A stretch of DNA of 43,721 nucleotides from a virus: IMG/VR virus record IMGVR_UViG_3300025896_000047, positions 1 through 43,721 of that record. One strand, 5' to 3'. The notes under the pieces were generated by a model. That model was not told the origin of the DNA. It did not search any database and saw only the letters and a program-made list of their open reading frames with translations. A program made the position numbers and the translations under genes. Shown here piece by piece: positions 13,952 to 42,704 of the stretch (positions are counted from its first letter, which is position 1; every line of letters starts with the position of its first letter).

Positions 13952-14596
13952 ATGAACTGCTATAAAACTGTAAACTTCAAATTTTCGGACCCGGCTTGGG
14001 CCTGGTTACAGAGCTTTTCTGAGCCAATTATTGCAGACTATCAACTGCATGCTCCTGCTGCCAGTGCATTGGTAAAATTTAATGATTTAGATTATCAGCA
14101 ATTTATGCAAAGTTCTGCATGGAACGAGATAGTAGTATTCTTACAAACTTATTCTATTCAAGATTTGTATCCTCAACTGTTTATCTATAAGCAGTTGCCC
14201 CGTGTCCGAGAAAGTATATTAGGTAATCCACACCTTGACACCACTGGGGGCGATGGGACAGAGATCGATATTCCCATACGCTTTAATATTCTCATGTCTG
14301 GTGACGACGATACTGAGATGGTTTGGTGGAACATAGATCGAAATGATCATCGAATAACAAATGAAAAATTTACTAATCCTGCAGGACACTCAGTGGGTAG
14401 GCTTCAAGTAGTAGGAGTTACTCCAACGGAGCGATGGCAAACATTAGGCGAACCATTGGTTAGGTCCCGTACGCTGTCAAAAAAACAGGAGCATGCAAGT
14501 TTTGTTAGGACTGATATACTCCATGCGCTCAATTGGTCTGGTGCCAATCCTAGACTTATATTAAGCGTTAGATCAACTCAACCGTGGCCGTTTTGA
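13952..14596 (+). CDS. Putative 2OG-Fe(II) oxygenase-like protein, 214 aa
   Basis: PHLDTTGG (His93, Asp95) fits the HxD iron-binding pair, and ILHALNWSGANPRLILSVR near the C-terminus fits the distal His and the Arg that binds 2-oxoglutarate. The segment between is beta-rich as expected of a double-stranded beta-helix. The gene faces the operon that ends at 14598, 1 bp from its stop. Expression seems to use a late promoter with no leader. Substrate unknown. Confidence 0.65.
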   Translation: MNCYKTVNFKFSDPAWAWLQSFSEPIIADYQLHAPAASALVKFNDLDYQQFMQSSAWNEIVVFLQTYSIQDLYPQLFIYKQLPRVRESILGNPHLDTTGGDGTEIDIPIRFNILMSGDDDTEMVWWNIDRNDHRITNEKFTNPAGHSVGRLQVVGVTPTERWQTLGEPLVRSRTLSKKQEHASFVRTDILHALNWSGANPRLILSVRSTQPWPF

Positions 14597-14597
14597 T

Positions 14598-15452
14598 TTA
14601 CTGTGCTTCTTCTATTACTGCAATATCTTTAATAACTGCGCTGGCAGTGATGGTGTTCATATAATCACGAAGCTTGGCACTAACCAAGTTATTTCTAGTT
14701 TTCTTGTCCGGACTACCGAGAACAATAATATCAAACTCTTTTCCTTTGTGCGTCATTGACATTGAAATGCACCAACCTGCTGGATTAGTAAAGCCAGTTT
14801 TACCAACTGAAATATCATACTTGCCTGCAAACATACTTGTATTACGAATCATAACGTGCTTTATGATTCCTTTAAGGTTTACAGTGTCTGCGGTTGTTTG
14901 CGCAGTCATTGCTGCCGCAGCAAACTCTTTGTGTTTTTTAATTGCAGTATTCAGTAAATGCAAATCCCAAGTGGTACTCTTATTCAGTAGTAATCCAGTT
15001 GGTTCAACATATACAGTGTCGACCATTCCTAACTTATTAGCAGTCAAATTCATCGATTCGATAAAGGCATCATAGCCGCCAGGATGTGCAAGTGCCAATG
15101 TCTTGGCTGCTAAATTATCAGATGCAACTAAACTTAAGGTAATCAGTTCTTGCCTACTTACTCGCATTCCATGTTTTAAATTTCGACTACCTTCAATTTT
15201 CTGTCGATTGATTGTAATCATCTCATTTAAATTGGCTTTGCTTTCTAGCACTACATACACTGTCATTAACTTTGTAATAGATGCGATTGGTAGTTGCGTC
15301 TTTGCGTTAAAACTTTCTACTATGCGATTTGATGTTCGATCAAATACCAATATAGACTGTGCTTGTTCTGCTATACTAATTTGTAAAGGCGTCTTTGACC
15401 AAGCACCAACTGAAGACAATAGTAATACAACTATAACTACAAACTTGGTCAT
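14598..15452 (-). CDS. D-Ala-D-Ala carboxypeptidase/endopeptidase (peptidase S11, PBP)
   Basis: All three penicillin-binding motifs are present: SITK (Ser58, Lys61), SDN (111-113) and KTG (218-220). A signal peptide (about 1-19) sends it to the periplasm, where it would trim or cut peptidoglycan cross-links, as DacA or PbpG do. At 284 residues it lacks the long C-terminal domain and anchor of DacA and is closer to PbpG. It is the last gene of a coupled oxygenase/ATPase operon. A role in lysis, superinfection exclusion or wall remodelling is inference. Confidence 0.9.
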   Translation of the reverse strand: MTKFVVIVVLLLSSVGAWSKTPLQISIAEQAQSILVFDRTSNRIVESFNAKTQLPIASITKLMTVYVVLESKANLNEMITINRQKIEGSRNLKHGMRVSRQELITLSLVASDNLAAKTLALAHPGGYDAFIESMNLTANKLGMVDTVYVEPTGLLLNKSTTWDLHLLNTAIKKHKEFAAAAMTAQTTADTVNLKGIIKHVMIRNTSMFAGKYDISVGKTGFTNPAGWCISMSMTHKGKEFDIIVLGSPDKKTRNNLVSAKLRDYMNTITASAVIKDIAVIEEAQ

Positions 15453-15958
15453 TTAATGGCTTGATACATTCTATAGAATTGCGGAGTCAAGCCCACCCGT
15501 TCACTGCTTCGCAGTCGCGATGCATTATCAACATGTACGTGAGAAGCAATGTGATTACCGCCTCGCAGTTTAACAAATTCTACCAAGTATTTGTGTAGCA
15601 GTTGATTGATTCGTTTGCCGCGCTCTTCAGGAGCAGTAAATGACAACGTGATCCAACCACAACCTGCCAAGTGTCTGTATTCAAAAACAATACCACCTAC
15701 CACTTTGTTGTTGCTGTCAGTTGCATACAAACAATGCGACTTGTTGATATCGGCCCAGACCACAATAGGTGCTGCAAATCCAGTGTCGATAATTTCTGCG
15801 TAGGTTTTCAAAAACAATGCCATGGGTCGATTACCTGCTACCACATCAACAAACGAAATTTTAAGTTCTCGACTAGTGGCATCTGTTTCAGTGCCAAGTA
15901 CTACATCACACTGGTTGATAGGAACAGGTGCTTTTGGAATAGATATATTTGTAAACAT
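15449..15958 (-). CDS. GNAT-family acetyltransferase, 169 aa
   Basis: The segment GGIVFEYRHLAGCGWITLSF followed by PEERGKRINQLLHKYLVEF (about 92-131) matches GNAT strands 4-5 and the acetyl-CoA loop (R/Q-x-x-G-x-G/A variant ERGKRI). The tail SSERVGLTPQFYRMY is the usual GNAT C-terminus. It overlaps the PBP gene by 4 bp. The acceptor is unknown. Confidence 0.75.
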   Translation of the reverse strand: MFTNISIPKAPVPINQCDVVLGTETDATSRELKISFVDVVAGNRPMALFLKTYAEIIDTGFAAPIVVWADINKSHCLYATDSNNKVVGGIVFEYRHLAGCGWITLSFTAPEERGKRINQLLHKYLVEFVKLRGGNHIASHVHVDNASRLRSSERVGLTPQFYRMYQAIK

Positions 15959-15967
15959 AGTTTTATT

Positions 15968-16852
15968 TTAATACACTTTCTTAGTTTTGTCAAGTTCAAG
16001 ACCTTCAAATATGTCGCCATCGGCCAACATATCAAATGGATGCTTGTTGCCATAAAATTCATTTTGGACCCAGGCCTCTTCTTCTGGCAAGTAATCCCAC
16101 CAGGGACTAAATCCCAGAACCAAATGTATTCTACGGCTGGTGTTTTGTGCATTAGTAAACACACGATGCGATACATTGGTATCCCATGAGTAAGCCCAAC
16201 CTACATCCAAATGTTCAGGCGTATGACCTTCAATTTGAAACAAGTAGTCGTTGGTAGTAGTAATTGGAATGTTAATACGTAAATTTTCAAAGATCAATTC
16301 ATCTTTGTGCCACCCACGTTTGGCCTTGCGTTTTTCATCAAACACCTCTCCGTTTAGAATACTCATTCTACTTCTAACTCGAGTGCGTTTGCATCGTTCC
16401 ATAAAGGTACCCAAGCTCTTATGACCACTGGCTGGTGTTGGTTCATTAAATCCATAACCATCAAAGTAGCTGTTTTTTAGTACGCTGTGCTTTTGTGTGC
16501 TGTTCCAAAAGAACTCATCCTTTTGAATACTGTTGACCGGTGTTCCTAATGTAGAGCTATGTGGGTCTAACTTGTCGAGTTGAAAAGGATTGTATACCAA
16601 ACTGAATCCGGTGTAGTAAGGAGTAATGCCTTCACTTGATACCCACCCGTGGTCACCATACACTGTTGTGGCATCAACAATATCAGCATGCAGTTGATCA
16701 ACATCAAAATCGCGTATCTTAAAGCACAACAGTTCATCGTACTCGTTTTTAGGTTTGCATGCTTCTGTTGCCTTTTTCCAATCTGATTGCGTGTACAACC
16801 ACGAAATAACTGTTGATTCTTCTGGCACATCTTTTACATAATATTTTTTCAT
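15968..16852 (-). CDS. Aspartyl/asparaginyl beta-hydroxylase-like 2OG-Fe(II) enzyme, copy A
   Basis: GWHKDE (HxD), then SHRVF and RRIHLVLGFSPWWDY supply the iron-binding and 2-oxoglutarate-binding positions of this family. The start at 16852 has AGGAG 5 bases upstream. It is 294 residues and strongly similar along its length to the gene at 20514-21386: shared blocks include YGDHGW, HSSTLGTP, NSYFDGYGFN, RCKRTRVRSR and NEFYGNKHPFDML. It directly follows the PP-loop ATPase gene. The family hydroxylates Asp/Asn side chains or related small molecules. Confidence 0.85.
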   Translation of the reverse strand: MKKYYVKDVPEESTVISWLYTQSDWKKATEACKPKNEYDELLCFKIRDFDVDQLHADIVDATTVYGDHGWVSSEGITPYYTGFSLVYNPFQLDKLDPHSSTLGTPVNSIQKDEFFWNSTQKHSVLKNSYFDGYGFNEPTPASGHKSLGTFMERCKRTRVRSRMSILNGEVFDEKRKAKRGWHKDELIFENLRINIPITTTNDYLFQIEGHTPEHLDVGWAYSWDTNVSHRVFTNAQNTSRRIHLVLGFSPWWDYLPEEEAWVQNEFYGNKHPFDMLADGDIFEGLELDKTKKVY

Positions 16853-16859
16853 TTTACTC

Positions 16860-17954
16860 CTAGACAAAGCTGTTGTTTGGATTGTAAATCAAACTGCTAT
16901 CAATCGTTGATAAATTTACAAAGTTATAATTGCTATCAATTGCATCGTTACTTTTGCGGCCACGAACAACGTGATACAAGCTACCACGTTTGGCTTTTTC
17001 TAAATATGATTTATCTTTTAAAAATTCTGAAATTAGCTGGCGCGGATACCATTTGTATGAGTTCCAAGTTCCGTGGTGTTTGTGATCCCTGTCATTCATG
17101 CTCCACTGTTGGAATTCAGTAGTACCAAAGAACTGTATGTAATTATCATTAAGGTACTGTTCGTTTAACTCCCGGGCTGGACTAAAAATTAAGAATCTAA
17201 AGTACACACTGGTCCATTTGCATGTAAAGTTAAGCCACCAAAATACGTCCCACGTTGAATAAATTTCAAAACCAGCACGATCCGCTAAACCATAAAAAAG
17301 GTTTGCCCATCGTTCAGATTCTCTTTGGTCAAGTCCTACCCAAATAAAGTATTCTATTAGCAGTGATAACGAACGTGGGGAAAGTAATTCACTTGCTGGT
17401 TTCCATTTAAGTAATGATTTAATCATTGCAGAACCAAACAACTGGTCGTTAAACTCACCACCAACAAGTATGTAATCATTGCATACGCCTTGATTAAATT
17501 CCAAAGAATTAATCAATTTGATATCACTGCGGCGTAGAACCTTTTCCCACATAGCAGGATTTTCATCAATTGACAAACTACTCATTGCAATTTCAAGCCG
17601 TGTGCCAAGTTGTTCAACTCCTAGTTCATTGATAAAACTCAGCAGTACCATACTAGAATCAATTCCTCCCGAGTACATTAATCTAATTGGCTTGTCTAAC
17701 GCTTCCTGCTGTTTTAAAATGCGTTGAACCTGTAGTTGGCAGCATTCGGTGTAAGTTAGATTAAACGAACTGTCGTACTTGGGCAAGTGCATCGAAGCAG
17801 GTACGCCTGCGTCAATGGGCAATCTAATGTAGCCTGTACGGTCAATGAAGCTGATGTTGTCATTGATAATTTGGCTTATGTTTTTCCAGCGTACTACATC
17901 TGCTGTGAGTGGTAATTGAACTCTAGCAGGATTGTACGCATACAACGTTGTCAT
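16860..17954 (-). CDS. PP-loop (asparagine-synthase-like) ATPase A
   Basis: MYSGGIDSSMVL holds the PP-loop SGGxDS at about 95-100, which binds ATP and adenylates a carboxylate or similar group, as in asparagine synthase, QueC and beta-lactam synthetase. No N-terminal glutaminase Cys is present, so it is not a complete Gln-dependent asparagine synthase; the ~90-residue N-terminal region is different. 364 residues. It overlaps the upstream gene by ATGA and precedes hydroxylase A by 7 bp. Confidence 0.8.
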   Translation of the reverse strand: MTTLYAYNPARVQLPLTADVVRWKNISQIINDNISFIDRTGYIRLPIDAGVPASMHLPKYDSSFNLTYTECCQLQVQRILKQQEALDKPIRLMYSGGIDSSMVLLSFINELGVEQLGTRLEIAMSSLSIDENPAMWEKVLRRSDIKLINSLEFNQGVCNDYILVGGEFNDQLFGSAMIKSLLKWKPASELLSPRSLSLLIEYFIWVGLDQRESERWANLFYGLADRAGFEIYSTWDVFWWLNFTCKWTSVYFRFLIFSPARELNEQYLNDNYIQFFGTTEFQQWSMNDRDHKHHGTWNSYKWYPRQLISEFLKDKSYLEKAKRGSLYHVVRGRKSNDAIDSNYNFVNLSTIDSSLIYNPNNSFV

Positions 17955-18574
17955 ATTAATGCATCTCTCCATAGCTGAGTGTTTATATGAATGTCAATTG
18001 CATCTAACTCTTCAAAGGTCTGCGCGAGTGTAATATCGCACGTGAACTTTTTGTGCCAGGCATAGATTCTCATTTTCTTATTTTGAACTTCAGCATACTC
18101 AAATTCAAGTTCGCGGCGAGCTTGGTCCACTGTTAAGCCATTGATAGTTGCATACTCATCTAAACCGTTATGCGAGCTGTTTAACTGAAATGCAATGCAT
18201 TGCTCATATTCCAGTCCTTGATAACCAACATAGTCTTTGAGATTTTGCAATTCGAGCCATAATAACTTTTCAATTGATCGTAATTTACGATTTGCAAGTT
18301 GTTTGCGACTTACCAGTCTATCAACATCACCATCAACGACGGTAAAGTGCTTTAACTCTGATCCCACAACGTACACCAAATCGTTCCGCACAATGTCTTG
18401 TGTAATTGCTCGGTAAACAGTAGCGCCAACTGATACTAATCTAATTTCAGTGTCCAACACAGCTTTCTTTAAGATGTTGAACTTTGGCATTACAATATAC
18501 GTAGGCGAGTTAGAAAAGCACAGTATGCAATCTGTTTGCAGGTCAATAAGCAGAGTTAGGTCATGTGTAATCAT
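17951..18574 (-). CDS. Unknown protein, 207 aa, in oxygenase/PP-loop operon
   Basis: No motif recognised. The N-terminal 100 residues are beta-rich (including VYVVGSELKHFTVVDGDV) and the rest helical with HKKFTCD near 166-172. Both junctions are 4-bp ATGA overlaps, so it is made with its neighbours and probably acts in the same pathway. Confidence 0.65.
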   Translation of the reverse strand: MITHDLTLLIDLQTDCILCFSNSPTYIVMPKFNILKKAVLDTEIRLVSVGATVYRAITQDIVRNDLVYVVGSELKHFTVVDGDVDRLVSRKQLANRKLRSIEKLLWLELQNLKDYVGYQGLEYEQCIAFQLNSSHNGLDEYATINGLTVDQARRELEFEYAEVQNKKMRIYAWHKKFTCDITLAQTFEELDAIDIHINTQLWRDALI

Positions 18575-19269
18575 AGTTTAAACAAGTGATTGGTGTTATT
18601 GACAATTTCAATAGTTTCTTCGGAGCATAAGCCAGTGACTTGAAGTGTGACCCTATCGCTTCTACCCAAGTTGCAAGTACCGTGCGGTGTATCTCTCCAA
18701 TTGTGCCATACAATATCTCCAGCACGCCATTGCTTCCAATATGTGTTGCCCACTGCCCATACATGGCCAGGTTGCCAATCAAATACTTGGATTTCAAATC
18801 TTGCTGCCCACTTTGGATCCTTGTCTAGCCAACTGTCTGGATCATTGCCTTTTGTGCCAGGGATTTCATCAACGTGGTAAGGAAACAAACCGCCAGGTTT
18901 TTGAATGTGAAAACTTGCACCAGCTTTTTTAAACTTAAACGAGTCGATGATTTTTTGTATTGCATCATTACCAGTTCTGCGCAAGTTATAAAAGAATGTG
19001 TGGTTTGGATCTAGATTCAAATACTCCAGTTCTGCTCTATCGTACTCCATTGTAAACGGTGGATCCACTTGATTGTTTTGCACCTGTAGTCTATTTAAAA
19101 AGCCATTGGCTTCGGGCTGATACACCTTGAGTTGAGCCTGGTACAGTGCAGACAGGTCTCCTTCAATGCGGCCAATTACTTTATAGTGTGGATCTGTATC
19201 TTCGTTCACAGTATTGTCAAAGTGGTAGTTGCTTAATTTTTTTGAGTATTCCCAACGTGTAATTGTCAT
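18571..19269 (-). CDS. 2OG-Fe(II) oxygenase-like protein, 232 aa
   Basis: PYHVDEIPG (HxD), the strand region FEIQVFDWQPGHVWAVGN, and TPHGTCNLGRSDRVTLQVTG (distal His and Arg) match a cupin-like 2OG-Fe(II) oxygenase. The start at 19269 has AAGGA upstream and makes an ATGA overlap with the acetyltransferase gene; the longer frame to 19329 lies inside that gene. Aspartyl-hydroxylase-like in layout. Substrate unknown. Confidence 0.75.
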   Translation of the reverse strand: MTITRWEYSKKLSNYHFDNTVNEDTDPHYKVIGRIEGDLSALYQAQLKVYQPEANGFLNRLQVQNNQVDPPFTMEYDRAELEYLNLDPNHTFFYNLRRTGNDAIQKIIDSFKFKKAGASFHIQKPGGLFPYHVDEIPGTKGNDPDSWLDKDPKWAARFEIQVFDWQPGHVWAVGNTYWKQWRAGDIVWHNWRDTPHGTCNLGRSDRVTLQVTGLCSEETIEIVNNTNHLFKL

Positions 19270-19718
19270 GTTGATTCCTTGTTTATGTGTTTCCATGCGT
19301 ATGAAACACCTTTGTAAATTCCTGGCCATCGATGTTCAGATATAGTAAATCCCAGGCTTGCATAAAATCCCTCAACCCCGTTACGAGGGAAGGTGTACAC
19401 AAAGTTACAGTCGGGAAACATAGCAATCACTTGATTTACCATTGTACTTGCTACCCCCGAATAACGGTTGTCTGCTTTGCAGTATGTGCCTCTAACTCTA
19501 AGTTCGCCAGGCCCTGTCAGATAAGCATGTGTGCAACCAAACGCTTCTCCGTTATCATCTATTGCAATAACATAACGCGGCTTCATTAAACTATAATCAC
19601 TGCCCCAAAATTTAATCATTCCTAGTGTGTTGTCAATTGGCGGGACTGGTTCTTTATCTGGCCACAGTTCTTTTAAAAGTGGCAAGCACTCTGAGTAGGA
19701 ACTTTCCTTAATCAACAT
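19266..19718 (-). CDS. GNAT-family acetyltransferase, 150 aa
   Basis: ELRVRGTYCKADNRYSGVAS (about 73-92) fits GNAT strand 4 and the acetyl-CoA pyrophosphate loop, and VYTFPRNGVEGFYASLGFTI is the typical C-terminal strand-helix. It overlaps the upstream 269-residue gene by 11 bp and the downstream oxygenase by 4 bp. Acceptor unknown. Confidence 0.8.
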   Translation of the reverse strand: MLIKESSYSECLPLLKELWPDKEPVPPIDNTLGMIKFWGSDYSLMKPRYVIAIDDNGEAFGCTHAYLTGPGELRVRGTYCKADNRYSGVASTMVNQVIAMFPDCNFVYTFPRNGVEGFYASLGFTISEHRWPGIYKGVSYAWKHINKEST

Positions 19719-20517
19719 TCACTGACTCCATTGGTTGCAGTGTATTTGCATACTCTCTTGCAATCAGGCCTTTATAAAAAGGATAGTTCAGACTGTTGCT
19801 GATTAGTTCCAAGTCATGTGACTTGGTTGGCATTAATGAAACTGCCAAAGTCATTGGCCCAAATCTGTTAACGGTCAGTGATCTAAGTAGTGCTGTATTC
19901 TGATTCAGATTAAGCTGTCCAAGGAAAGCACGAAGTAGTAGCAAACAAAAATTTGGTACTAAAAACTTTTCACAATCGTTGTACATTAACGCAGCCGGAA
20001 TGTCCGAATAAGGTAACAACATTTGCCATTTTGGTTCTGCTGCATAAAATGTTGTGGGTGATTTGGTTACTGTGCTATGGTCGACAAACGAAGGGAAAGT
20101 CCCAACTAAACCACTTTGCTTACCTTCACTTGCAAGACGATGAACTGTGTATAACTCGTGTAATGTAAATTGACTGTTGCAAAAATACTTTTCTTTTGCA
20201 AGTTCAAACCATGCTGCATCAATTTCTGCATCGGGAGTAACGAACTGTATGTCACTTCGTCCAACCTGTTGACACAATGCTTCCAATGTATCACTGACAA
20301 GTCTCATGCCTGGGCGTACAAATACAAAATTCTGCGGTAGCTGTTGTAATAAGGTAGTGGCCAATTTGACCAATGGCTGGTCGGGTACATCTTCAAAATT
20401 GAATTTTACTGTAAAGCCAGCAGTGGTTGCAAGTTCCTTATTGATAGAACTAGCAGGGATTAAGTTCATTTCAGAATCGTAAAACCAAGCTGTGTAAAAT
20501 TTGTTAAAGTCAATCAT
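19708..20517 (-). CDS. Unknown protein, 269 aa, in oxygenase/PP-loop operon
   Basis: Alternating strands and helices with an ExDxxW-like segment (TPDAEIDAAWFELAKEKYF) but no signature I recognise. The layout might suggest a transferase fold (PLVKLATTLLQQLPQNFVFV near the N-terminus), which is weak. It is coupled to hydroxylase B by a 4-bp overlap and to the acetyltransferase by 11 bp. Confidence 0.6.
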   Translation of the reverse strand: MIDFNKFYTAWFYDSEMNLIPASSINKELATTAGFTVKFNFEDVPDQPLVKLATTLLQQLPQNFVFVRPGMRLVSDTLEALCQQVGRSDIQFVTPDAEIDAAWFELAKEKYFCNSQFTLHELYTVHRLASEGKQSGLVGTFPSFVDHSTVTKSPTTFYAAEPKWQMLLPYSDIPAALMYNDCEKFLVPNFCLLLLRAFLGQLNLNQNTALLRSLTVNRFGPMTLAVSLMPTKSHDLELISNSLNYPFYKGLIAREYANTLQPMESVNVD

Positions 20518-21386
20518 TCATATACCTTTATTGTTGTGTCAAGTTCAAGTCCTTCAAATAGGTCTCCGTCTACTAGCATATCAAACGGATGTTTATTTCC
20601 GTAAAATTCGTTTTGTGTCCAGCATTGTTCTTCTGCGTCATAATCCCACCAAGGACTGAATCCCAGCACTGCATGAATTCTACGACTGTCATCTACTACA
20701 TTTTCGCAAAATACTCTGTGTGGCACATAAGTGTCCCACGAGTATGCCCACCCAACTTTTAAATGCGTTGGTGCATGATTTTCAATTTGAAACATGTATT
20801 GTGGAGTAGTAGTGATTGGGATGTTGATGCGAATGTTTTCAAATATCATTTCGTCCTTGTGCCAGCCACGGGTTAGTTCAAAATCTTTACCATTTAGAAT
20901 ACTCAATCTACTACGTACACGAGTACGCTTACATCTTTCCATAAACTTGCCAAATTCACCGTGCTGGCTGGCAGGAGTTGGAGTATTGAACCCATAACCG
21001 TCGAAGTAGCTGTTCTTCAATACCGAGTGTTGCTGTTTCGAGTTCCAGAAAAATTGACTATTGGAATTCTTAGGAGTGCCCAGTGTAGAGCTATGCGGAT
21101 CTAATCCGTCTTGGTGTTCAGGGTTATATACCAGACTGAACCCAGTGTAACCTGCATCTTCCCCTTCTGCTGACTTCCAACCATGATCACCGTAAATTGT
21201 CAATGCTTCAGTGATGCTGTTGCTGATTGCTACAGGATCAAAGTCCTTTACACGCAAACAAATCACTTGGTCAAATGTATTGATGGGTTTGACTGTGGAC
21301 ATTAAACTTTCCCAGTCAGTGTTATTTTTCAACCATCTACTTACTGTAATATCGTCGGGGCAATCTTTAGTAAAGAATTTCTTCAT
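20514..21386 (-). CDS. Aspartyl/asparaginyl beta-hydroxylase-like 2OG-Fe(II) enzyme, copy B
   Basis: A paralogue of the gene at 15968-16852. It has GWHKDE (HxD), VPHRVF (distal His) and RRIHAVLGFSPWWDY (Arg). It is the first gene of the nine-gene leftward operon, with AGGAAACAG before the ATG, and is divergent from PP-loop ATPase B (61 bp apart). Hydroxylase next to PP-loop ATPase thus occurs twice within 6 kb. Confidence 0.85.
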   Translation of the reverse strand: MKKFFTKDCPDDITVSRWLKNNTDWESLMSTVKPINTFDQVICLRVKDFDPVAISNSITEALTIYGDHGWKSAEGEDAGYTGFSLVYNPEHQDGLDPHSSTLGTPKNSNSQFFWNSKQQHSVLKNSYFDGYGFNTPTPASQHGEFGKFMERCKRTRVRSRLSILNGKDFELTRGWHKDEMIFENIRINIPITTTPQYMFQIENHAPTHLKVGWAYSWDTYVPHRVFCENVVDDSRRIHAVLGFSPWWDYDAEEQCWTQNEFYGNKHPFDMLVDGDLFEGLELDTTIKVYE

Positions 21387-21419
21387 TCTGTTTCCTGGGT
21401 TTTCTGCAAATAATTAAAT

Positions 21420-21427
21420 CATAAATA
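21420..21427 (+). promoter_or_regulatory. Late-promoter-like box CATAAATA
   Basis: One mismatch from TATAAATA, 20 bases before the ATG at 21448. No Shine-Dalgarno is obvious in the short leader. Confidence 0.35.
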
Positions 21428-21447
21428 TCGCTATAACTATACTTATT

Positions 21448-22377
21448 ATGAATCCAACCTTAGATTACACCCATAAAAATCATTTTAAGTTTGGCTACGA
21501 CCAAACTTGGTATGTGCCGCGAACCAGTCGATACCAAACATGGCAATGCCAATACGGTGTTGCTGAAGATGTAACACTGACTGTAAAAGAAGCTAATCGT
21601 AGAGCTGCACTTAAAATACAACAGGAAGCAACTCGTCTTGGACTTGATGTGTATTTGCTACTAAGTGGTGGCGCTGACAGTGAAGTAGCGGCTCGTGCAT
21701 TTTTAGATGCAGGTGTACCATTTACTGCTGCCATCCTAAAATACAAAAATGATGCCAATAAACACGAGTCTGTATTTGCATACCACTTGTGCAAAAAATA
21801 TAGCATACCTGTGCTGGAAATTGAATTAGACCCTGTTGCATTTTTTGAAAGCGAAGAATTTGATATCATTACTGGGATAAGTCAAACTCGTAGTGGACAA
21901 CTTGCTTGTACAATGTGGGGTGCTAAACAAATTCCCGGATACGTAGTACTTGGCCAGGGCGAGCCTTACTTGTATAGACAGTTTGGCAAATGGTGGTTTC
22001 GTGAACGTGAAATGATTTGTTCTTGGTACAAGTACTGGGTATTCTCCGGAGTGCATGGTGCGGCTGGATTCCATCAATACACACCCGACCAAATGCTGGC
22101 TTATCTAACTGATCCTATTATTTTAAAAATGATCAATGACAATGCACCAGCTGGAGATGATCTTGCTAACAATGCAGATGTCAAACACTTACTGTATCAA
22201 ACTCACTATCCCGATTCAGATTTGCTGAATAGAAAAAAGTATACTGGATTTGAAAAATTACCCATTGCCGACAGCATTAGTAGAACAAAACTATTTGAAC
22301 GTTTTCCGTTCCATTTAGCTGAACATGCAGTTGAATATACGCAAATGATCAGAGACCTCAAAGGAGAAACTGCATGA
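21448..22377 (+). CDS. PP-loop (asparagine-synthase-like) ATPase B
   Basis: YLLLSGGADSEVAARAF contains the PP-loop SGGxDS at 73-78. 309 residues, with an N-terminal ~65-residue beta region and no glutaminase domain. It shares architecture with the ATPase at 16860-17954 and overlaps the downstream oxygenase gene by 4 bp (ATGA). Likely reaction: ATP-dependent adenylation followed by amide, lactam or similar bond formation; the substrate is not known. Confidence 0.8.
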   Translation: MNPTLDYTHKNHFKFGYDQTWYVPRTSRYQTWQCQYGVAEDVTLTVKEANRRAALKIQQEATRLGLDVYLLLSGGADSEVAARAFLDAGVPFTAAILKYKNDANKHESVFAYHLCKKYSIPVLEIELDPVAFFESEEFDIITGISQTRSGQLACTMWGAKQIPGYVVLGQGEPYLYRQFGKWWFREREMICSWYKYWVFSGVHGAAGFHQYTPDQMLAYLTDPIILKMINDNAPAGDDLANNADVKHLLYQTHYPDSDLLNRKKYTGFEKLPIADSISRTKLFERFPFHLAEHAVEYTQMIRDLKGETA

Positions 22378-23171
22378 TAGACTTTCACTCATTGGTAGCA
22401 GCCGAATTATCGGGCTTGGAATATGACCAGGTAGCTTTTGCTGAAGAGTACGATAACCGCATCTTACCTGTTAGTAGTAATGTTCGTAACGGTGAAGATG
22501 TACTACTACACACCATTGAAGCAAACATCAAATGGAACATGGTTGACCCCAACAAGTATGTCAAAGCAGACGTTCGAAGTAGAACAGGCGAGCCCATTGA
22601 CAATGGTTACCCAAGTTGGAAGGGTGCATCGCTGGTATACTTGGATTCTGAAGACGCAGAGCTGGCTGAAAATAGCAAAAATGGCAGCGTTTCTATTCGA
22701 AACTATGTGCTTGACAAACATGGCGAGTTTAAATTCTTCCCACAGTATGAAGACTTAATGATAACAAAGTACATTAAAAGTCTACCGCTTGATACAATTA
22801 TTGGAGTACGTTGTGTTTCTTTAAGAGAAGATACTTTTGCAATTATACATAGAGATAACAGCAATTTCTTACCTAGCAGTCAACGTAGCTTAAAGGTACA
22901 GCGGATGGTTGATAACTTTCTTTGGAAACAGGGCTTTGTGCAGATAACTATCAACATCAGTGATGGCGGCGTACCCATGTACTATAGCAGTTCCAGTGAT
23001 CTTACAAATGAATACAATACAGTTAACTACCCTGTTTACTTGTTTAATGACTTTTTCTACCATGGTGTACCTATTACAACAAGTCGCCGCCGACAGATTA
23101 GGATTACTGGCCGTCCAACCGCTGCCCTAATCAAACACATCAACGAAGCAAGCATGGTAAATTGTCCATAA
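22374..23171 (+). CDS. Putative 2OG-Fe(II) oxygenase-like protein, 265 aa
   Basis: IIHRDNSNFL (HxD, about 159-161) and FFYHGVPITTSRRRQIRITG (distal His, Arg) with the strand region VQITINISDGGVPMYY between them fit a jelly-roll oxygenase. It is translated by ATGA coupling with PP-loop ATPase B, the second ATPase-oxygenase pair in the island. Confidence in the fold is moderate. Confidence 0.6.
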   Translation: MIDFHSLVAAELSGLEYDQVAFAEEYDNRILPVSSNVRNGEDVLLHTIEANIKWNMVDPNKYVKADVRSRTGEPIDNGYPSWKGASLVYLDSEDAELAENSKNGSVSIRNYVLDKHGEFKFFPQYEDLMITKYIKSLPLDTIIGVRCVSLREDTFAIIHRDNSNFLPSSQRSLKVQRMVDNFLWKQGFVQITINISDGGVPMYYSSSSDLTNEYNTVNYPVYLFNDFFYHGVPITTSRRRQIRITGRPTAALIKHINEASMVNCP

Positions 23172-23205
23172 TTCATTGAAACATCATCTTGAACGATAAG
23201 TATAT

Positions 23206-23213
23206 GATAAATA
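23206..23213 (+). promoter_or_regulatory. Late-promoter-like box GATAAATA
   Basis: One mismatch from the T4 late consensus, about 46 bases before the ATG at 23260; a normal leader with GGAG follows. Confidence 0.4.
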
Positions 23214-23259
23214 CTTTTATACAACGCATGAAGCGTTACAGAAAACGGAGTCCATTATA

Positions 23260-23571
23260 ATGACAAATCCAGTTAAATTAACTCGCACCTTTACTCGTCC
23301 AAACACTGATGTGTTATTTTGGGCAGCAGCGCCAGGTACAAAATCTGCAATTGATGCAGCCTATGTAGCAACCGGCAAATTACTATCAGTTACTCGTCAC
23401 GTACCAACTGATAAGTCATTGACCCAGGTCATTGAATATGTATTTGCAAATATCGAAGCCCTAGACGAATTTGCAGCAGACCCAAGTTTATTGCCTGTTG
23501 TAATCGAACGTGATGCATACAATGCAACGAACGGTATTACAAATAGCCATGTTGTTGAACAAGTTGCATAA
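23260..23571 (+). CDS. Small protein, 103 aa, possibly dimeric alpha/beta-barrel
   Basis: The pattern of the middle (LLSVTRHVPTDKSL, then VFANIEALDEFAADPSL) is reminiscent of dimeric alpha/beta-barrel (ABM/EthD-like) proteins, but this is a weak impression. A GGAG site precedes the ATG and a strong terminator follows. It closes the rightward PP-loop/oxygenase unit, though with 88 bp and its own late box between. Confidence 0.6.
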   Translation: MTNPVKLTRTFTRPNTDVLFWAAAPGTKSAIDAAYVATGKLLSVTRHVPTDKSLTQVIEYVFANIEALDEFAADPSLLPVVIERDAYNATNGITNSHVVEQVA

Positions 23572-24111: not shown

Positions 24112-24693
24112 ATGACCTACTATACTGCACTTGATATTTTGCCAGAACCGTTTGGTCAAGCTGGTCTTGATCTAATGAACTACAACAAGTCAATAAATCC
24201 GGACAGACAGTTTCGTCTAGCACTAAATGTATCCAAGCATATCAGGCCCGAAGTAGTTGAATTATTGGACCAATGTAACTTATGCATACGTTTCGCTGAG
24301 CTGTTTTGCACTCCTGCTAACCGCACCAGTATGATTCATATTGATGGTGAGCCCGATGCGTATATGATTCCCAACAACATGGCCAAGATAAATTACATTG
24401 GTGGCGGAGAAGGTAGTCAGATGCATTGGTACCAACCCATTGTACATAAACCCTATGAGCCTACCGGTAGAAACAAATTTACCAGTTTTCAGCCCGATGA
24501 GGTCACGTTGGTTGGTAGCAGTAATCTAAAGGGATATAACATTGCCCAGACTGGCATCCCACACAACATAACTACTGACAACAATTCAAGATACTGTGTA
24601 TCAATGACCCTGGCCATTAAAGGTGAAACACCCAAGATGATTCCCTACGAGATGATGGTTACACTATTGGCACCGCATCAATCACTTCATTAA
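24112..24693 (+). CDS. 2OG-Fe(II) oxygenase-like protein, 193 aa
   Basis: MIHIDGEPDA (HxD) and IPHNITTDNNSRYCVSMTL (distal His and Arg) with intervening strands fit a jelly-roll oxygenase. It is alone on the + strand between leftward genes and overlaps the tail of the 58-residue gene by 12 bp on the opposite strand. It has a late-promoter box immediately before the ATG. Substrate unknown. Confidence 0.65.
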   Translation: MTYYTALDILPEPFGQAGLDLMNYNKSINPDRQFRLALNVSKHIRPEVVELLDQCNLCIRFAELFCTPANRTSMIHIDGEPDAYMIPNNMAKINYIGGGEGSQMHWYQPIVHKPYEPTGRNKFTSFQPDEVTLVGSSNLKGYNIAQTGIPHNITTDNNSRYCVSMTLAIKGETPKMIPYEMMVTLLAPHQSLH

Positions 24694-28192: not shown

Positions 28193-28221
28193 ATTATAGC
28201 ACAAGAGTTGAACAACGTCAA
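28193..28221 (-). promoter_or_regulatory. Sigma-70 promoter for the phosphatase gene
   Basis: TTGACG-17-TATAAT. Confidence 0.8.
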
Positions 28222-28829
28222 CCACCAAATAGTATGTTGGCTACGTCATCAAACGATAACTTGCAATGTGGTACGGGTCTTAGGGTTAATATAATTCTTC
28301 GATTGGGCGACCGTCTATTGTCCCAATCATGAAATGCACCTACGTTAAACAATAAACATTCATTGTGTTTCATTGTCGTTGACGAAGTTGGTTTAACACT
28401 GTCAACTTGATAATTTCGTAATTCTCGAATATACCGTTTCATTCCCATGAAATTATCTGGACCTGCATAGTATTCAAATTCACTTACACTACTATCAGTG
28501 TACCAATTTGTGATACAGTGTTCATCTAAGATTTCAATTGGTATATTAATACCAAATTGCATATCTGATCCATCTTTATGAGGCGGGGAATATAGTCCAG
28601 GTTTACTAACAAATATATTCATGCGAGAGGACAGTAACTCCAATTGATTAAATTCAGGGAATAGTTTGATTACTTCTAATGCTGAATCAGAATGAAGTGG
28701 TTCTGAAACAAACGGTCGTTTAAACACTCGATTGCAAACGTCTTTATACACGTTAGCGATTTCAACAGCATTGGGCATATTAAACTTGACATAGTAAGGA
28801 CTATTATCTTCGATGATGTTGTACATCAT
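28218..28829 (-). CDS. 2OG-Fe(II) oxygenase-like protein, 203 aa
   Basis: PPHKDGSDMQFGINIPIE (HxD and strand), then GAFHDWDNRRSPNRRIILTL (distal His, Arg) fit a jelly-roll oxygenase. Two ATGs are adjacent (28829 and 28826); the second lies 4 bases beyond a perfect TATAAATA box, where transcription would start. Substrate unknown. Confidence 0.65.
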   Translation of the reverse strand: MMYNIIEDNSPYYVKFNMPNAVEIANVYKDVCNRVFKRPFVSEPLHSDSALEVIKLFPEFNQLELLSSRMNIFVSKPGLYSPPHKDGSDMQFGINIPIEILDEHCITNWYTDSSVSEFEYYAGPDNFMGMKRYIRELRNYQVDSVKPTSSTTMKHNECLLFNVGAFHDWDNRRSPNRRIILTLRPVPHCKLSFDDVANILFGG

Positions 28830-34286: not shown

Positions 34287-34315
34287 ATTATAGCATCAAC
34301 TTGAACACTTGTCAA
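34287..34315 (-). promoter_or_regulatory. Sigma-70 promoter
   Basis: TTGACA-17-TATAAT; the -35 box overlaps the stop of the HD hydrolase gene. Confidence 0.85.
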
Positions 34316-34755: not shown

Positions 34756-34779
34756 CGAGTTCTCCTTCTTTACAGTTAT

Positions 34780-34808
34780 ATTATAACGTACATTGGGGCA
34801 TGTGTCAA
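34780..34808 (-). promoter_or_regulatory. Sigma-70 promoter for the HD hydrolase
   Basis: TTGACA-17-TATAAT with AAAACGG upstream. A degenerate TGTTGTA half-site lies 9 bp above the -35 box (34818). Confidence 0.88.
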
Positions 34809-34832
34809 CCGTTTTTGTGTTGTATTTTAGCC

Positions 34833-36403: not shown

Positions 36404-36432
36404 AGTATACGCTATTTTGGTAATGATGTCAA
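36404..36432 (-). promoter_or_regulatory. Sigma-70 promoter for the SGNH hydrolase
   Basis: TTGACA-17-TATACT, overlapping the end of the oxygenase gene. Confidence 0.82.
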
Positions 36433-37047
36433 GCGAAAAACTAACTCATCCCAACTAATTTGTTCGGCAATTTCTGTTGTTATGATGATCCTATTTTCGT
36501 TACAGTTAGGTGCTTGAACCCTATGTGCTATTTCAGTCCGATTCCACCCTGCCCCCGGATTCATTATCTTGTACACAGAATCTGTGCCCCAATCTACCAC
36601 TGTTGATTTGTAACTGTATGCTGTATGCTCTCGGCCGTTGCGTAGTTCAGTGAATGCTCGTTCTTCAATTCGATCGCTATCAACTCCATCGTCCCACCAC
36701 TCCAGGCAAACTGGCTCACATCCAAAGTAAGGTATATTGAAACGGGCCACCATGGGTGTTCCACGAACAAAGGCATCAATATGAGCGTTCAGTGGATTTT
36801 GATTCTTGTGTGCAATAAATCCAGCAAAGCGTCTGATCCGTAATCCAAGATCAGCAAAGTGCTGTTCAACTGCGGCTCGTTGCGGCCATGCATCAAATAC
36901 ACTCTGCGGAAGATCAACACGATCAAATGCCCCTTTGATAATGTCCAATGCAGGCATTAAACGTGGCACTATGTTTTCCTTTACCCATTCTCGATCTAAT
37001 TCTGAAGGATCAAATTCAGGTGTTGGCACATTGTATATCTTACTCAT
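36412..37047 (-). CDS. 2OG-Fe(II) oxygenase-like protein, 211 aa
   Basis: LNAHIDAFVRG (HxD) and EIAHRVQAPNCNENRIIITT (distal His, Arg) with beta strands between fit the fold also seen in other oxygenases of this window. Soluble, no signal peptide. Substrate unknown; divergent from the Bug-type protein gene. Confidence 0.65.
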   Translation of the reverse strand: MSKIYNVPTPEFDPSELDREWVKENIVPRLMPALDIIKGAFDRVDLPQSVFDAWPQRAAVEQHFADLGLRIRRFAGFIAHKNQNPLNAHIDAFVRGTPMVARFNIPYFGCEPVCLEWWDDGVDSDRIEERAFTELRNGREHTAYSYKSTVVDWGTDSVYKIMNPGAGWNRTEIAHRVQAPNCNENRIIITTEIAEQISWDELVFRLTSLPK

Positions 37048-38087: not shown

Positions 38088-39287
38088 TTATCTAATCCAA
38101 ACAGATTCTGGTGTAAGTGTTTTTAACGGTCCAAGATTATATGTATGTGTTACTACTATCAACCCATCAACTCTATCGTCGGGTAGTTTCTTAGTAAAAG
38201 GTGTAAGTTTATTTGTCACATAGTCTAAACCTTCTCGCCATACATTATGCGCCTTTGTGCCAGCATACAAGTCGGTAAACCACGAATCAAATTCACTATA
38301 CCAATCGTAAATGGCTTTTTTACTTTGGAACCAATTGTTATCCCATGTAGTGTACAACAGGCCGCGTAGCAATGGATCATGCACCAGTCGATAAACATCA
38401 GGAGTTACAGTTTTAGTCTGCCACATGGCTTGGTGTTGTGGGTTTGCTTCCAGCCACTTTTTAATGACATGACCTTGCTTGATCATAATCTCGACACAGT
38501 CTGGAGTCCAATAAAAGAACTCAACTGTGCTGTTGGGATATTCTTTCAAGTGTTCTGCCACTGTAATCATGTTTGTAGTACGGTCACTAAAGGCCATCAT
38601 AAACTCACCACGGTGAATCATTGTACGTGGTTTTTCAATACCAACAACTACTCCAATTTTTTTATCCTTATCAAAGTTTTTACGAATATCAGTAAAGTGT
38701 AAGTAGTTGAATCGAGTCATACCTGCTGGGTTTAAGCCTTCGCGTTTGTCCAAGACCCAACTTGCATCGCCTGCTGTTTCTAGTTCTTCAAACAGCGCAT
38801 CGCTACAATCAGTGACAGTAATTTTTGTACCTGGCATAGTCTTGTGAACTTCCTTTAGACGCTCGACTGTGTTCAAATGATATTCAGCTTCGGGCGCATT
38901 GTATGCTTCTTTATTGTTGACATCAACTGTCATGGCCTTGGCAGAAGCTTTGGTCATTGTGTTGGTAATAATTTCATCAATGTGCAGACCTTGACGTTGG
39001 AATGCAGTAAGAATGTTGTGACTATCGGCGCCGCCCGAATAACTCAAGATGAGATAATCATACTGCTCACGCAACTGTCGAGCACGTTGGTCATACAATT
39101 GATCCAACGACAACTCAGGTTCAATTTTCCAATCGTGCTTGTTGAACTCGTCGTTGTTAAAGACCCAAGTGACAGGTTTGGCGTGTTCAACCGCATGTAC
39201 ACATGCACGAATCTTAGAGTCAAATTCTAAGTTATCACAAATGTAGTAGCCAAGTTTTTTGTTAATATATGGATTGTGTATTCTCAT
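38088..39287 (-). CDS. PP-loop (asparagine-synthase-like) ATPase C, 399 aa
   Basis: LILSYSGGADSHNILTAF carries the PP-loop SGGxDS (84-89). An N-terminal ~75-residue region precedes it and the C-terminal half contains many Trp/Tyr residues that may form a substrate pocket. No glutaminase domain. It is joined to ATPase D by a TAATG junction. Confidence 0.8.
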   Translation of the reverse strand: MRIHNPYINKKLGYYICDNLEFDSKIRACVHAVEHAKPVTWVFNNDEFNKHDWKIEPELSLDQLYDQRARQLREQYDYLILSYSGGADSHNILTAFQRQGLHIDEIITNTMTKASAKAMTVDVNNKEAYNAPEAEYHLNTVERLKEVHKTMPGTKITVTDCSDALFEELETAGDASWVLDKREGLNPAGMTRFNYLHFTDIRKNFDKDKKIGVVVGIEKPRTMIHRGEFMMAFSDRTTNMITVAEHLKEYPNSTVEFFYWTPDCVEIMIKQGHVIKKWLEANPQHQAMWQTKTVTPDVYRLVHDPLLRGLLYTTWDNNWFQSKKAIYDWYSEFDSWFTDLYAGTKAHNVWREGLDYVTNKLTPFTKKLPDDRVDGLIVVTHTYNLGPLKTLTPESVWIR

Positions 39288-40261
39288 TAGTCTGCTTGCG
39301 TGTATCTTATAGTTTTACCCGAACCCCAATCGCTGAGATGAGCAACGAGTTCATCACGTGGAATGAACACTGCTTTATTTTTATAGTTATGACGTAGTCG
39401 AGTATCGCTAGGATTCATAATGAAGTCTACCTTCTCCGAACTAACATACTTAGGGAAAATTTCCAATTCCCGTCCCCAATACATTCCGTAAATGATTGGC
39501 TTGACATAGTATTCCCAACTGAAGATTAGCGGTGGAGGATTGCCGGTGTCCTTATCAATCAATCCATTGCCCTTGATATATTCCAGGCCGTTGATGTAGC
39601 CGGTAACTACTGGATCACTCAAGTAAGCAAGTGCAAATTCGTTGAATGGGGCGCGGCGATCAATACAAACAATCTTGCCCGAACGTTCAACTTGTTTTAA
39701 TGCACGTTGGCTGGCTACTTCAATTGCAGTCCAAGACTCCATGCAGTATGCTCGATTTTTAGGACCACGATAGATAAAGTCAAAACTTTCAATGCCTTGG
39801 CAAAAGTCCCGATCCTCTGGCAACTGGGCCAGAAACTTTTTCATCATGTGGTGCTCAGCAGGAATAGCAGTAGCAATGGCACTGGCTTCAATTTCCTCGC
39901 GGATCGCAAATGGATCAATTTCTACAATGATACATTTGAATCCGTATTTCTTTTCCAGTATTTTAATGTTATTGTACTCGTAATCGTTATAACCCGGGTG
40001 GTACATAAATGCACACTCATAAGGCAGGCCAAGTGTATGGAATGTGTGCAGTAGCACTTGACTATCCAATCCGCTTGTCAAACTAATAAGCACTTTGGTC
40101 TGTGCTTCCTTTGCTAGTCGAATACAGCATCGTTCCATCTCTTGGCGTACATTGCCAATTGGACGTTCGCAACTGGTGTACTCCACGTAGAACTTTTCGT
40201 TGTCATCTAAACCGTATATCATGTGATACTTAGTTGTGCATGTAGCAGGCGACATGATCAT
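39287..40261 (-). CDS. PP-loop (asparagine-synthase-like) ATPase D, variant loop
   Basis: VLISLTSGLDSQVLLHTF aligns with the PP-loop, but the usual SGGxDS reads TSGLDS (62-67), a modest change at the first two positions. 324 residues; a C-terminal sequence DPVVTGYINGLEYIKG and WEYYVKPIIYGMYWGRE resembles the other PP-loop genes. It is divergent from the radical SAM gene (25 bp apart) and coupled to ATPase C. Confidence 0.75.
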   Translation of the reverse strand: MIMSPATCTTKYHMIYGLDDNEKFYVEYTSCERPIGNVRQEMERCCIRLAKEAQTKVLISLTSGLDSQVLLHTFHTLGLPYECAFMYHPGYNDYEYNNIKILEKKYGFKCIIVEIDPFAIREEIEASAIATAIPAEHHMMKKFLAQLPEDRDFCQGIESFDFIYRGPKNRAYCMESWTAIEVASQRALKQVERSGKIVCIDRRAPFNEFALAYLSDPVVTGYINGLEYIKGNGLIDKDTGNPPPLIFSWEYYVKPIIYGMYWGRELEIFPKYVSSEKVDFIMNPSDTRLRHNYKNKAVFIPRDELVAHLSDWGSGKTIRYTQAD

Positions 40262-40286: not shown

Positions 40287-41234
40287 ATGGCCAAAGTCAT
40301 TGAAATAAGAAAACAACCCAATCTCTTTGCCATATACTGGACACTGACTGATTTTTGCAACTTCAGATGTAATTACTGTCCAGCACATTTACACAGTGGG
40401 GATTTCCATAGCGGCAGGAAACCTGGCTTTCCCACTGACGAACAAATTGTTTCCTTTTTGGACTTACTGATAGCAGAGTACTTGCCCGGCAAGCAACTGA
40501 GTTTAGCACTAGGTGGCGGCGAACCAACATTGCATCCAATGTTTGCTACTATCATTGAAAAGATGGCACCATTTGGCGAAACATCAGTAACAACAAATGG
40601 CGGACGTAATGTAGAATGGTGGGCTGCATTGCCAACATTGCCAGCCGCAGTCACCATTAGTCTACATCATGAATTTACTAAACTTGACAAAATAAATGAA
40701 ATCTCACATTTCCTTGTCAAGGCTGGTGTTAACTTAACTTATAATTTGAGCTGTGATCCAGCGTCGTGGAGTGATGCAGTTAACATGTACAATGGAATAG
40801 ACGACGATTTAAAACATCTAGTGCAACCCAAAGTATTGAACTATATTAGTGGAGGTCGTGACACATATCCCTACACCGATCAACAGCGTGTATGGATTAA
40901 AGATATTCAAAGCAAGTTTGTTCGTAATAAGTTGTCATTCAAGAAAATTAGAACATTACCTACTGTGATTTATGATGATGGTACTGCACGTACACTCACA
41001 AATCTAGCTGAGCTAACACTTAATGATGATCACGTATATACTGGATGGGAATGTTATGCTGGCCAGGAAACATTCAACATACATTTTGATGGCATGGTAT
41101 ACTCATCTATCTGTAAACAAGTGACAATTTGTCACCTTGGAGATTTTAAGCCGCTGTCGGCACCGTTTATTTGCAATGTCAAGGCATGTGCATGCCCCGG
41201 TGATTTACTTGTTTCTAAGAAAAAAGTATTGTAA
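40287..41234 (+). CDS. Radical SAM enzyme, paralogue of the one at 7268-8275
   Basis: CNFRCNYC (Cys24, Cys28, Cys31) and GGGEPT (77-81 region) mark the radical SAM core. The C-terminal part repeats the layout of the paralogue: TGWECYAG, a strand with NIHFDG, then CNVKACACPGDLLVSK. AAAGGA lies before the ATG. Divergent from two PP-loop genes, so the pathway may combine both enzyme types. Substrate unknown. Confidence 0.85.
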   Translation: MAKVIEIRKQPNLFAIYWTLTDFCNFRCNYCPAHLHSGDFHSGRKPGFPTDEQIVSFLDLLIAEYLPGKQLSLALGGGEPTLHPMFATIIEKMAPFGETSVTTNGGRNVEWWAALPTLPAAVTISLHHEFTKLDKINEISHFLVKAGVNLTYNLSCDPASWSDAVNMYNGIDDDLKHLVQPKVLNYISGGRDTYPYTDQQRVWIKDIQSKFVRNKLSFKKIRTLPTVIYDDGTARTLTNLAELTLNDDHVYTGWECYAGQETFNIHFDGMVYSSICKQVTICHLGDFKPLSAPFICNVKACACPGDLLVSKKKVL

Positions 41235-41808: not shown

Positions 41809-42045
41809 TTAACGTTGCATCAACTTTAAGTTGAGTGCAAAATTTTCTACTGTCAACTTAACTACTGTTGCCAACAAGATCATATCTCTGCTATCTGGAT
41901 CAGTGCCCAGGTAACTGTCTAATACTCCACTTGCTATTAACTCGTACGCATCATGTTCGTCTATACTTAGCATGCCCCAGTCGATGGGATCGCCCATCTC
42001 AATCTGTTCTGCAAGTTCAACTAGTTGTTCTGTTAAATTCATCAT
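41809..42045 (-). CDS. Unknown acidic protein, 78 aa
   Basis: MMNLTEQLVELAEQIEMGDP starts an acidic helical protein with no recognised family. Its ATG overlaps the PKHD hydroxylase stop (TAATG), and it ends 9 bp before tRNA-Thr, so the message probably continues into the tRNAs. Confidence 0.7.
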   Translation of the reverse strand: MMNLTEQLVELAEQIEMGDPIDWGMLSIDEHDAYELIASGVLDSYLGTDPDSRDMILLATVVKLTVENFALNLKLMQR

Positions 42046-42617
42046 TAACGCCACTTGGGTCCATCAACCCATATTGCCAAACTGTTTCTAATGCCACGTG
42101 TGACTGGCAGTGCGGCATGGTCAGCGAAAGATGGAAATACAATAACTGACCCTTGATTCCTAAACTGTTCTGCTGGTATAGCACTGTCAATCCCATATAT
42201 TTCAAAATCTCCACCATCGTATTCAGCAGGATCAGTTAGTTGAATCACTGCACTCAGCTTGCGATGATAAACAGGATCACCATTCATGTAAAACACATCG
42301 TTGTGACGCTTGTACTCTCCACGAATGTCACTGTTGTATTCTGCAAATTGTATATAATCAAACTTGCTGATATGAAAGTTGAACCAGTCGTTATTGGCTT
42401 GACATACCAGCTTCCACAGGTCATCAAATAGGCCTGACCATTGCGGCATATCCCGTTGTATAAATGCTATTTGACTTTTGCGCCAATCTAAATTGGCTGC
42501 ATCACCGCCAACACCTAATGTGGCAGCTTGACGAGGAATAGTATTTGCTTCTGCTATAATTGCATCGCAATATTCCTTGCTGAACTTCTTGTCAAATACA
42601 CACCATTCACCGTTCAT
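42045..42617 (-). CDS. PKHD-type 2OG-Fe(II) hydroxylase, 190 aa
   Basis: KRHNDVFYMNG (HxD), TDPAEYDGGDFEIYG, then FPSFADHAALPVTRGIRNSL (distal His and Arg) and the final WVDGP match the prolyl/PKHD hydroxylase family common in T4-like phages. The ATG at 42617 has AAGGA upstream; longer frames would enter tRNA-Thr. Probable protein or small-molecule hydroxylase. Confidence 0.88.
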   Translation of the reverse strand: MNGEWCVFDKKFSKEYCDAIIAEANTIPRQAATLGVGGDAANLDWRKSQIAFIQRDMPQWSGLFDDLWKLVCQANNDWFNFHISKFDYIQFAEYNSDIRGEYKRHNDVFYMNGDPVYHRKLSAVIQLTDPAEYDGGDFEIYGIDSAIPAEQFRNQGSVIVFPSFADHAALPVTRGIRNSLAIWVDGPKWR

Positions 42618-42630
42618 AATTTTCCTTATT

Positions 42631-42704
42631 TGGTGCCCCATGACAGAATCGAACTGCCGTTACCTGATTACAAAACAGGTGTTCTACCATTTAACTAATG
42701 GGGC
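42631..42704 (-). tRNA. tRNA-Thr(UGU), copy 2
   Basis: Anticodon loop TTTGTAA with a U-U at the top of the stem, acceptor GCCCCAT/ATGGGGC, encoded CCA. Confidence 0.9.

Follow-up and report, generated by a model that had tools for sequence, protein, structure and literature searches.

What might a phage make with a tight cluster of oxygenase, PP-loop ligase and acyltransferase genes? The question is raised by virus record IMGVR_UViG_3300025896_000047, whose whole sequence of 43,721 nt (43.7 kb) was analysed and is hereafter called the window, and within it by an island of genes, A to M. The answer that we favour, tentatively and with a little less than even confidence, is that a T4-like phage encodes, in a flexible part of its genome, a modular island for biosynthesis (tailoring), with amide-forming, hydroxylating and acylating enzymes.

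Gene layout and conservation

Nine genes (J, I, H, G, F, E, D, C and B) run leftward from 21386 to 14598, and K and L form a divergent, rightward pair. The island is flanked by A (13952, +) and M (23260, +). Its genes are listed here (2OG, 2-oxoglutarate; PBP, penicillin-binding protein).

A, 13952..14596, +: 2OG-type oxygenase of the same family as 36412-37047; HxD...H...R in 6/6
B, 14598..15452, -: periplasmic S11 D,D-carboxypeptidase / PBP; Pfam Peptidase_S11 1.7e-40
C, 15449..15958, -: GNAT acyltransferase; Pfam Acetyltransf_1 1.6e-7
D, 15968..16867, -: Asp/Asn-hydroxylase-like 2OG oxygenase; 67% identical to J; family A7 profile
E, 16860..17972, -: predicted AsnB-type PP-loop ligase without glutaminase domain; motifs in relatives
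F, 17951..18574, -: partner protein of E; 22-nt overlap with E; adjoins E-family genes throughout
G, 18571..19329, -: 2OG-type oxygenase; HxD, H and R in 5/5
H, 19266..19718, -: GNAT-like protein; Pfam Acetyltransf_7 2.6e-4, below cut-off
I, 19708..20517, -: possibly degenerate PP-loop-type fold, always with K; AlphaFold pLDDT 87
J, 20514..21386, -: Asp/Asn-hydroxylase-like 2OG oxygenase; H176, D178, R186 and H223 invariant in 40 sequences
K, 21448..22377, +: predicted AsnB/beta-lactam-synthetase-type PP-loop ligase; AlphaFold pLDDT 93.6; Foldseek best 1jgt
L, 22374..23171, +: 2OG-type oxygenase; HRD, H and R invariant; OXc link
M, 23260..23571, +: small conserved protein; family in relatives; no Pfam match

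The original prediction, made from the letters of the window, had described this leftward run and divergent pair; all its genes sit where it put them, and its enzyme classes hold: two paralogous Asp/Asn-hydroxylase (AspH)-like enzymes, a further 2OG-type one (G), PP-loops E and K, GNAT C and more weakly H, the S11 PBP, and F and I left unassigned. It had called the junctions mostly 4-bp overlaps. Overlap is indeed general (7/8 junctions from J to B), but exactly 4 bp occurs at 3/8, the gaps in order being -4, -11, -64, -4, -22, -8, +9 and -4. The -64 gap (H/G) presumes the first ATG of G, whose homology to the relative L003 begins at residue 17.

Orthologues are found in IMG/VR relatives in the same order, at 53-92% identity, and close relatives retain the whole gene order. 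Compared with L003 and L016, synonymous sites are near saturation, and the ratio of non-synonymous to synonymous substitution rates (dN/dS) is 0.03-0.08 for the enzymes where computable and 0.13-0.22 for M. F is the fastest-diverging gene, at 53% identity while its neighbours are at 75-92%. Because of the ordered orthologues, the near-saturated synonymous sites and the low dN/dS, chance can be set aside: the island holds genuine, conserved genes on which purifying selection acts strongly.

The ligases E and K

Judged from sequence profiles, and for K from a structure model as well, E and K look like AsnB-type PP-loop ligases, with neither the room for a glutaminase domain nor its cysteine. The SGGxDS motif is present in 80/80 relatives of E and 57/59 of K. 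The AsnB-like second motif G[EA]xxDx[LVI][FM] (GExxDxLF) is found in 64/80 E relatives and, with the pattern used, in 0/59 K relatives, which have a conserved GE instead. The PP-loop falls at about residue 98 in E and 73 in K, and a Met-Cys start, which places the cysteine of an N-terminal nucleophile (Ntn) glutaminase at position 2, occurs in 0/139 members of the two families. On this motif a glutamine-dependent asparagine synthetase was rejected.

The AlphaFold model of K has beta-lactam synthetase 1jgt as its best Foldseek match (1.3e-6), and its other best solved matches are NMN synthetase, AsnB and carbapenam synthetase; the link to beta-lactam synthetase, coming from a model, is one of fold resemblance only. 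The PP-loop fold that had been predicted is thereby borne out, by this model and by the sequence profiles. Two tRNA-modifying identities were rejected: TilS, whose HRxDDxxET-type motif is in 0/139 ligases, and a tRNA thiolase (MnmA/ThiI/TtuA), as there is no invariant Cys (best Cys column 0.71 in K and 0.78 in E).

Protein I was seen only beside K (in the window, L003, L012, L016, L018, L020 and L023). Its model has no PDB match at E<=0.001; its viral fold matches are uncharacterised phage proteins of 300-400 amino acids, one named 'asparagine synthase', and there are weak AsnB/NadE/PAPS-reductase matches. A degenerate PP-loop is thus suggestive and is not claimed here, profile-profile comparison with the PP2 and E families giving nothing significant.

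Oxygenases, acyltransferases and other island genes

The paralogues D and J are predicted to be 2-oxoglutarate-dependent hydroxylases of the Asp/Asn-hydroxylase-like class, and the AspH-like class proposed at the outset is upheld by the sequence profile. Pfam Asp_Arg_Hydrox is matched by 30/40 members of their superfamily (family A7, with distant phage relatives), and against PDB the family profile finds beta-hydroxylase (3e-20), L-proline cis-4-hydroxylase (1.4e-15) and also AspH. The HxD...H iron ligands are H176, D178 and H223. D and J thus share the active site and core profile of aspartyl/asparaginyl beta-hydroxylase and L-proline cis-4-hydroxylase; unlike that family, they have a long extra N-terminal region and singly match no Pfam family. 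Other oxygenases are linked to D and J through intermediate families (87-97% hhalign probability), L by OXc and both A and N (24112..24693, outside the island) by OXb: A to OXb scores 97%, L to OXc 87% and OXc to the AspH family 92%.

C scores 32 bits against the Acetyltransf_1 cut-off of 20.7, and its family is present in 10 loci. H falls under the Acetyltransf cut-offs, at 21.8 versus 27 bits and 19.5 versus 20.7 bits. B has the SxxK, SxN and KTG motifs (SITK, SDN and KTG) and is confined to the closest lineage; speculatively, its presence would suit a target in the cell wall, or a need to withstand a product resembling a beta-lactam. The M family occurs in 18 K-type loci and 32/80 E loci.

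Recurrence and modules

The original prediction had staked its claim on these genes occurring together in other phages, and they do. A K profile search gave 60 loci, found by the K-type PP-loop alone, and 56 of them, some being near-identical contigs, form the neighbourhood set. Any GNAT is present within 8 kb in 56/56, GNATa in 46/56, a desaturase in 44/56 and the AspH-like family in 41/56, and a GNAT and a 2OG-type (2OG/AspH/TauD) gene both lie within 8 kb in 50/56. PP-loop, GNATa and desaturase genes are collinear in 27 loci, preceded by GNATb in 24. Directly 3' of one K-type gene, at L018:14928-15542, is a QueC-type protein (Pfam 1.3e-9).

A viral scan with E gave 186 relatives, 80 of which were kept for the E counts. 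The gene upstream of E is on the same strand in 77/78, often with a 4-bp overlap, and 69 of these are F-type genes of 195-279 amino acids. Conversely, an E-family gene adjoins 90/92 F-domain open reading frames across all fetched loci; one of the two exceptions, in L127, is an extra F copy that lies immediately upstream of the first one. The coupling persists across lineages only ~30% identical, and a cupin gene is nearby in 44/80 E loci. F itself has no PDB match, and its Pfam hits, in just 5/40 relatives, are weak and discordant.

The surroundings of the F-E pair vary. One locus group has aminotransferase-like, alpha/beta-hydrolase-like (read from sequence; L131 and L135) and 2OG-type genes, then F-E-cupin. 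Another (L117:4886-9670, L120:4744-9721, L121:4987-9740 and L127:3985-9672) has a Cys-rich virion-type protein, a SPASM radical S-adenosylmethionine (SAM) enzyme, small genes, then F, E and cupin; the Cys-rich proteins have an ISxxDxNxE virion-type start and CNC/CAC-rich tails. These latter loci look like a putative phage-encoded system for a modified peptide or modified virion protein. A contig with the F-E-cupin module also carries a curli-type locus, with CsgF, CsgG and curlin-repeat proteins by Pfam (L005:13082-17191).

Relatives keep subsets of the island. L018 and L020 retain J-I-H, K, C, M and L; L011 retains I, H, F, E, K, M and one AspH-like gene. The island is therefore an assembly of modules that can occur apart: F-E, and I-K with J and H, with a PP-loop-GNAT-desaturase module elsewhere. 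F-E and PP-loop-GNAT-desaturase appear to be new, as literature searches found no description of either.

Many distant relatives of this uncultured tailed phage, from aquatic and other environmental samples, bear similarly interchangeable enzyme sets. Two large relatives, G002 (177.7 kb) and G007 (524.6 kb), encode the T4-type capsid protein Gp23; the latter (IMGVR_UViG_3300027749_002876, 524,565 bp) also has seven K-type PP-loop matches. Among cultured phages there was no nucleotide match to the window, and within the sensitivity of the search E, J and K (that of the window and distant K members) had no protein match in 50,697 phage records. The J/D profile and the main K-type group had no relative in 84,980 prokaryote genomes, a scan whose sensitivity is limited by short-pattern seeding. 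A desaturase match in Acinetobacter 'phage' MD-2021a was set aside, its neighbours being ordinary bacterial genes.

Proposed function and its rivals

We infer the reaction types as follows. E and K would use ATP to adenylate a carboxylate, which would then be joined into an amide or lactam, probably with an amine or free ammonia as nitrogen source because the glutaminase domain is absent. F may be an obligate partner of E, either as a subunit or as a carrier of the substrate, and K is likely to be partnered by I. Hydroxylation of an amino-acid-type substrate would fall to the 2OG oxygenases, AspH-like and others, and acylation of an amine to the GNATs. The product would most likely be a small amino-acid- or peptide-derived molecule. 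Amide or lactam formation, hydroxylation and acylation suit a nucleobase less well than a small molecule or a modified peptide; of the products first proposed, a modified base is the least likely.

Several points weigh against this reading. The K model matches its solved relatives with modest TM-scores (0.39-0.44), which would suit beta-lactam synthetase or other AsnB-type chemistry. G and H are weakly assigned, at 31% hhalign probability for G to the AspH family and 27-30% for the profile link of H to GNATd/GNATa. Sequence identifies neither a substrate nor a product. A statistic in its favour has limits: on seven large contigs 14/20 AspH-like genes are <=10 kb from a K-type gene versus 18% expected (binomial p 5e-7), in a test that treats records and tandem paralogues as independent, and AspH-like genes cluster in hypervariable regions anyway. 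Finally, the island is a mosaic whose subsets differ among relatives, so a single pathway is not demonstrated; the first reading of its tight coupling as one pathway goes beyond the evidence, given these subsets and the extension of similar enzymes across the window.

A bolder form of the proposal, which we consider doubtful, is a virus-only biosynthesis of natural-product type, in which interchangeable AsnB-type modules (F-E-cupin; PP-loop-GNAT-desaturase; I-K with AspH-like hydroxylases) would make amide or lactam molecules during infection in many phage lineages, with no cellular counterpart.

The strongest rival, unlikely though we judge it, is that there is no one pathway. In that reading a hypervariable region would have gathered mutually unrelated tailoring genes, and modules of two to four genes, independently of one another, and these would act on various host or phage targets. 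Composition shifts between relatives, similar enzymes are scattered over the whole window between tRNA genes, and hypervariable regions of pelagimyophages gain cassettes stepwise (PMC7029224), all as such a store would have it. It sits less well with the 11-gene arrangement of J to C plus K-L, retained at 53-92% identity in other contigs, or with the F-E and PP-loop-GNAT-desaturase orders, which persist in very divergent phages.

Ranked second because of the Cys-rich/radical-SAM/F-E loci, and distinctly unlikely, is the reading that the enzymes modify a phage protein after translation, be it a tail fibre, a virion protein or F itself: the ligases would amidate or cyclise it, the AspH-like enzymes hydroxylate it and the GNATs acylate it, as in ribosomal peptide pathways. 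The Cys-rich virion-type protein and SPASM enzyme before F-E-cupin in four loci speak for it, as do the rapid divergence of F and the action of AsnB-like enzymes on peptide C-termini or in lasso closure (PMC13060819). The window argues otherwise: its island showed neither a Cys-rich nor a precursor-like gene, F is without repeats or a tail like a core peptide, and the operon has almost no space for a precursor gene.

Remodelling of the host envelope or membrane (lipid, lipopolysaccharide or peptidoglycan), by which the phage would exclude superinfection or change a receptor, is improbable. Lipid hydroxylases of the LpxO type are similar to the AspH family, as are OlsB-type N-acyltransferases to GNATs; membrane desaturases in related islands, the periplasmic D,D-carboxypeptidase B and the tail fibres adjoining a similar region in phage Mosig (see below) also count for it. 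Against these, B is restricted to the closest lineage, the window yielded no desaturase, and neither a glycosyltransferase nor a Wzx-like or acyl-carrier gene was recognised in the island.

Modification of tRNA or DNA bases is very improbable: the window has 25 tRNA genes, TilS, MnmA and QueC are PP-loop enzymes and L018 has its QueC-like gene, but the ligases look AsnB-type and are without the TilS motif and the invariant catalytic Cys, the oxygenases match amino-acid hydroxylases, and no gene for base hypermodification was noticed in the window.

Scattered 2OG oxygenases are a known feature of aquatic phages. Here such oxygenases are linked, within conserved modules, to ligases, acyltransferases, desaturases and radical-SAM enzymes. 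Searches of phage isolates did not find these modules, and scans of prokaryotic genomes did not find two of the enzyme families either. Should the modules yield a product, phages would offer small-molecule chemistry that is still untapped and a new means of altering infected cells. Two units, the F-E pair and the PP-loop-GNAT-desaturase module, are specific and testable.

Other genes in the window

Similar enzymes beyond the island, overlooked in the original prediction, bring the window totals to nine oxygenases, four PP-loops and three radical-SAM genes.

N, 24112..24693, +: 2OG-type oxygenase, family OXb; HxD, H and R in 37/37
28218..28829, -: OXb-type oxygenase; HxD, H and R in 37/37 of family
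36412..37047, -: 2OG-type oxygenase, family of A; family motif
38088..39287, -: third PP-loop ligase, family PP2; cluster 6, 20 loci
39287..40261, -: fourth PP-loop, K-like, reads LTSGLDS; cluster 0
40287..41234, +: radical SAM enzyme; Pfam 4.5e-12
42045..42641, -: 2OG-Fe(II) oxygenase; Pfam 2OG-FeII_Oxy_3 5.2e-13

The other two radical-SAM genes (from 6165 and 7268) are adjacent at 6165-8275, and a NifU-like Fe-S scaffold is at 11737-12129. A TctC-type periplasmic binding protein (37129-38037; Pfam 1.2e-21) belongs to a family that recurs beside PP-loop genes in 11 loci. There is also a nitroreductase gene, and near tRNA arrays are an RF-1 domain peptide-release-factor-like protein (26319-26747; Pfam 5.2e-20) and an HD-domain protein (34312-34836).

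Comparison with known systems

The statement that no known phage system has this composition was too strong, because cultured Pelagibacter phage Mosig EXVC030M (MT647606.1) carries a comparable hypervariable region: two Asp_Arg_Hydrox, FA_desaturase, TauD, GNAT, methylase, aminotransferase and MoaA-like/radical-SAM genes, in opposed runs beside the tail fibres, as a member of the T4-like or Kyanoviridae phages. Unlike the window island, it has no annotated PP-loop ligase. Pelagimyophages have a large hypervariable region ('host recognition cluster') by the tail fibres, with radical-SAM cassettes (PMC7029224); the landmarks of the T4-like cluster (VrlC, gp14 and tail fibres) were not seen in the 43.7-kb fragment.

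With beta-lactam synthetase, carbapenam synthetase and AsnB, E and K share the predicted PP-loop synthetase fold and SGGxDS, and E the second motif; they differ in the ~100 residues that stand before the PP-loop in place of the Ntn glutaminase domain, and in their low TM-scores. Clusters for ribosomally synthesized and post-translationally modified peptides likewise combine AsnB-like enzymes (lasso cyclases, the PesC nitrile synthetase) with oxidative enzymes; they have a precursor peptide gene, for which no counterpart was found in the window island, and an F-type partner is not described in the text consulted. HTVC023P-type pelagiphages have several non-orthologous 2OG-Fe(II) oxygenases close together in one genome (PMC9599517), but these pair with ferrochelatases, whereas the oxygenases of the window pair with PP-loop ligases.

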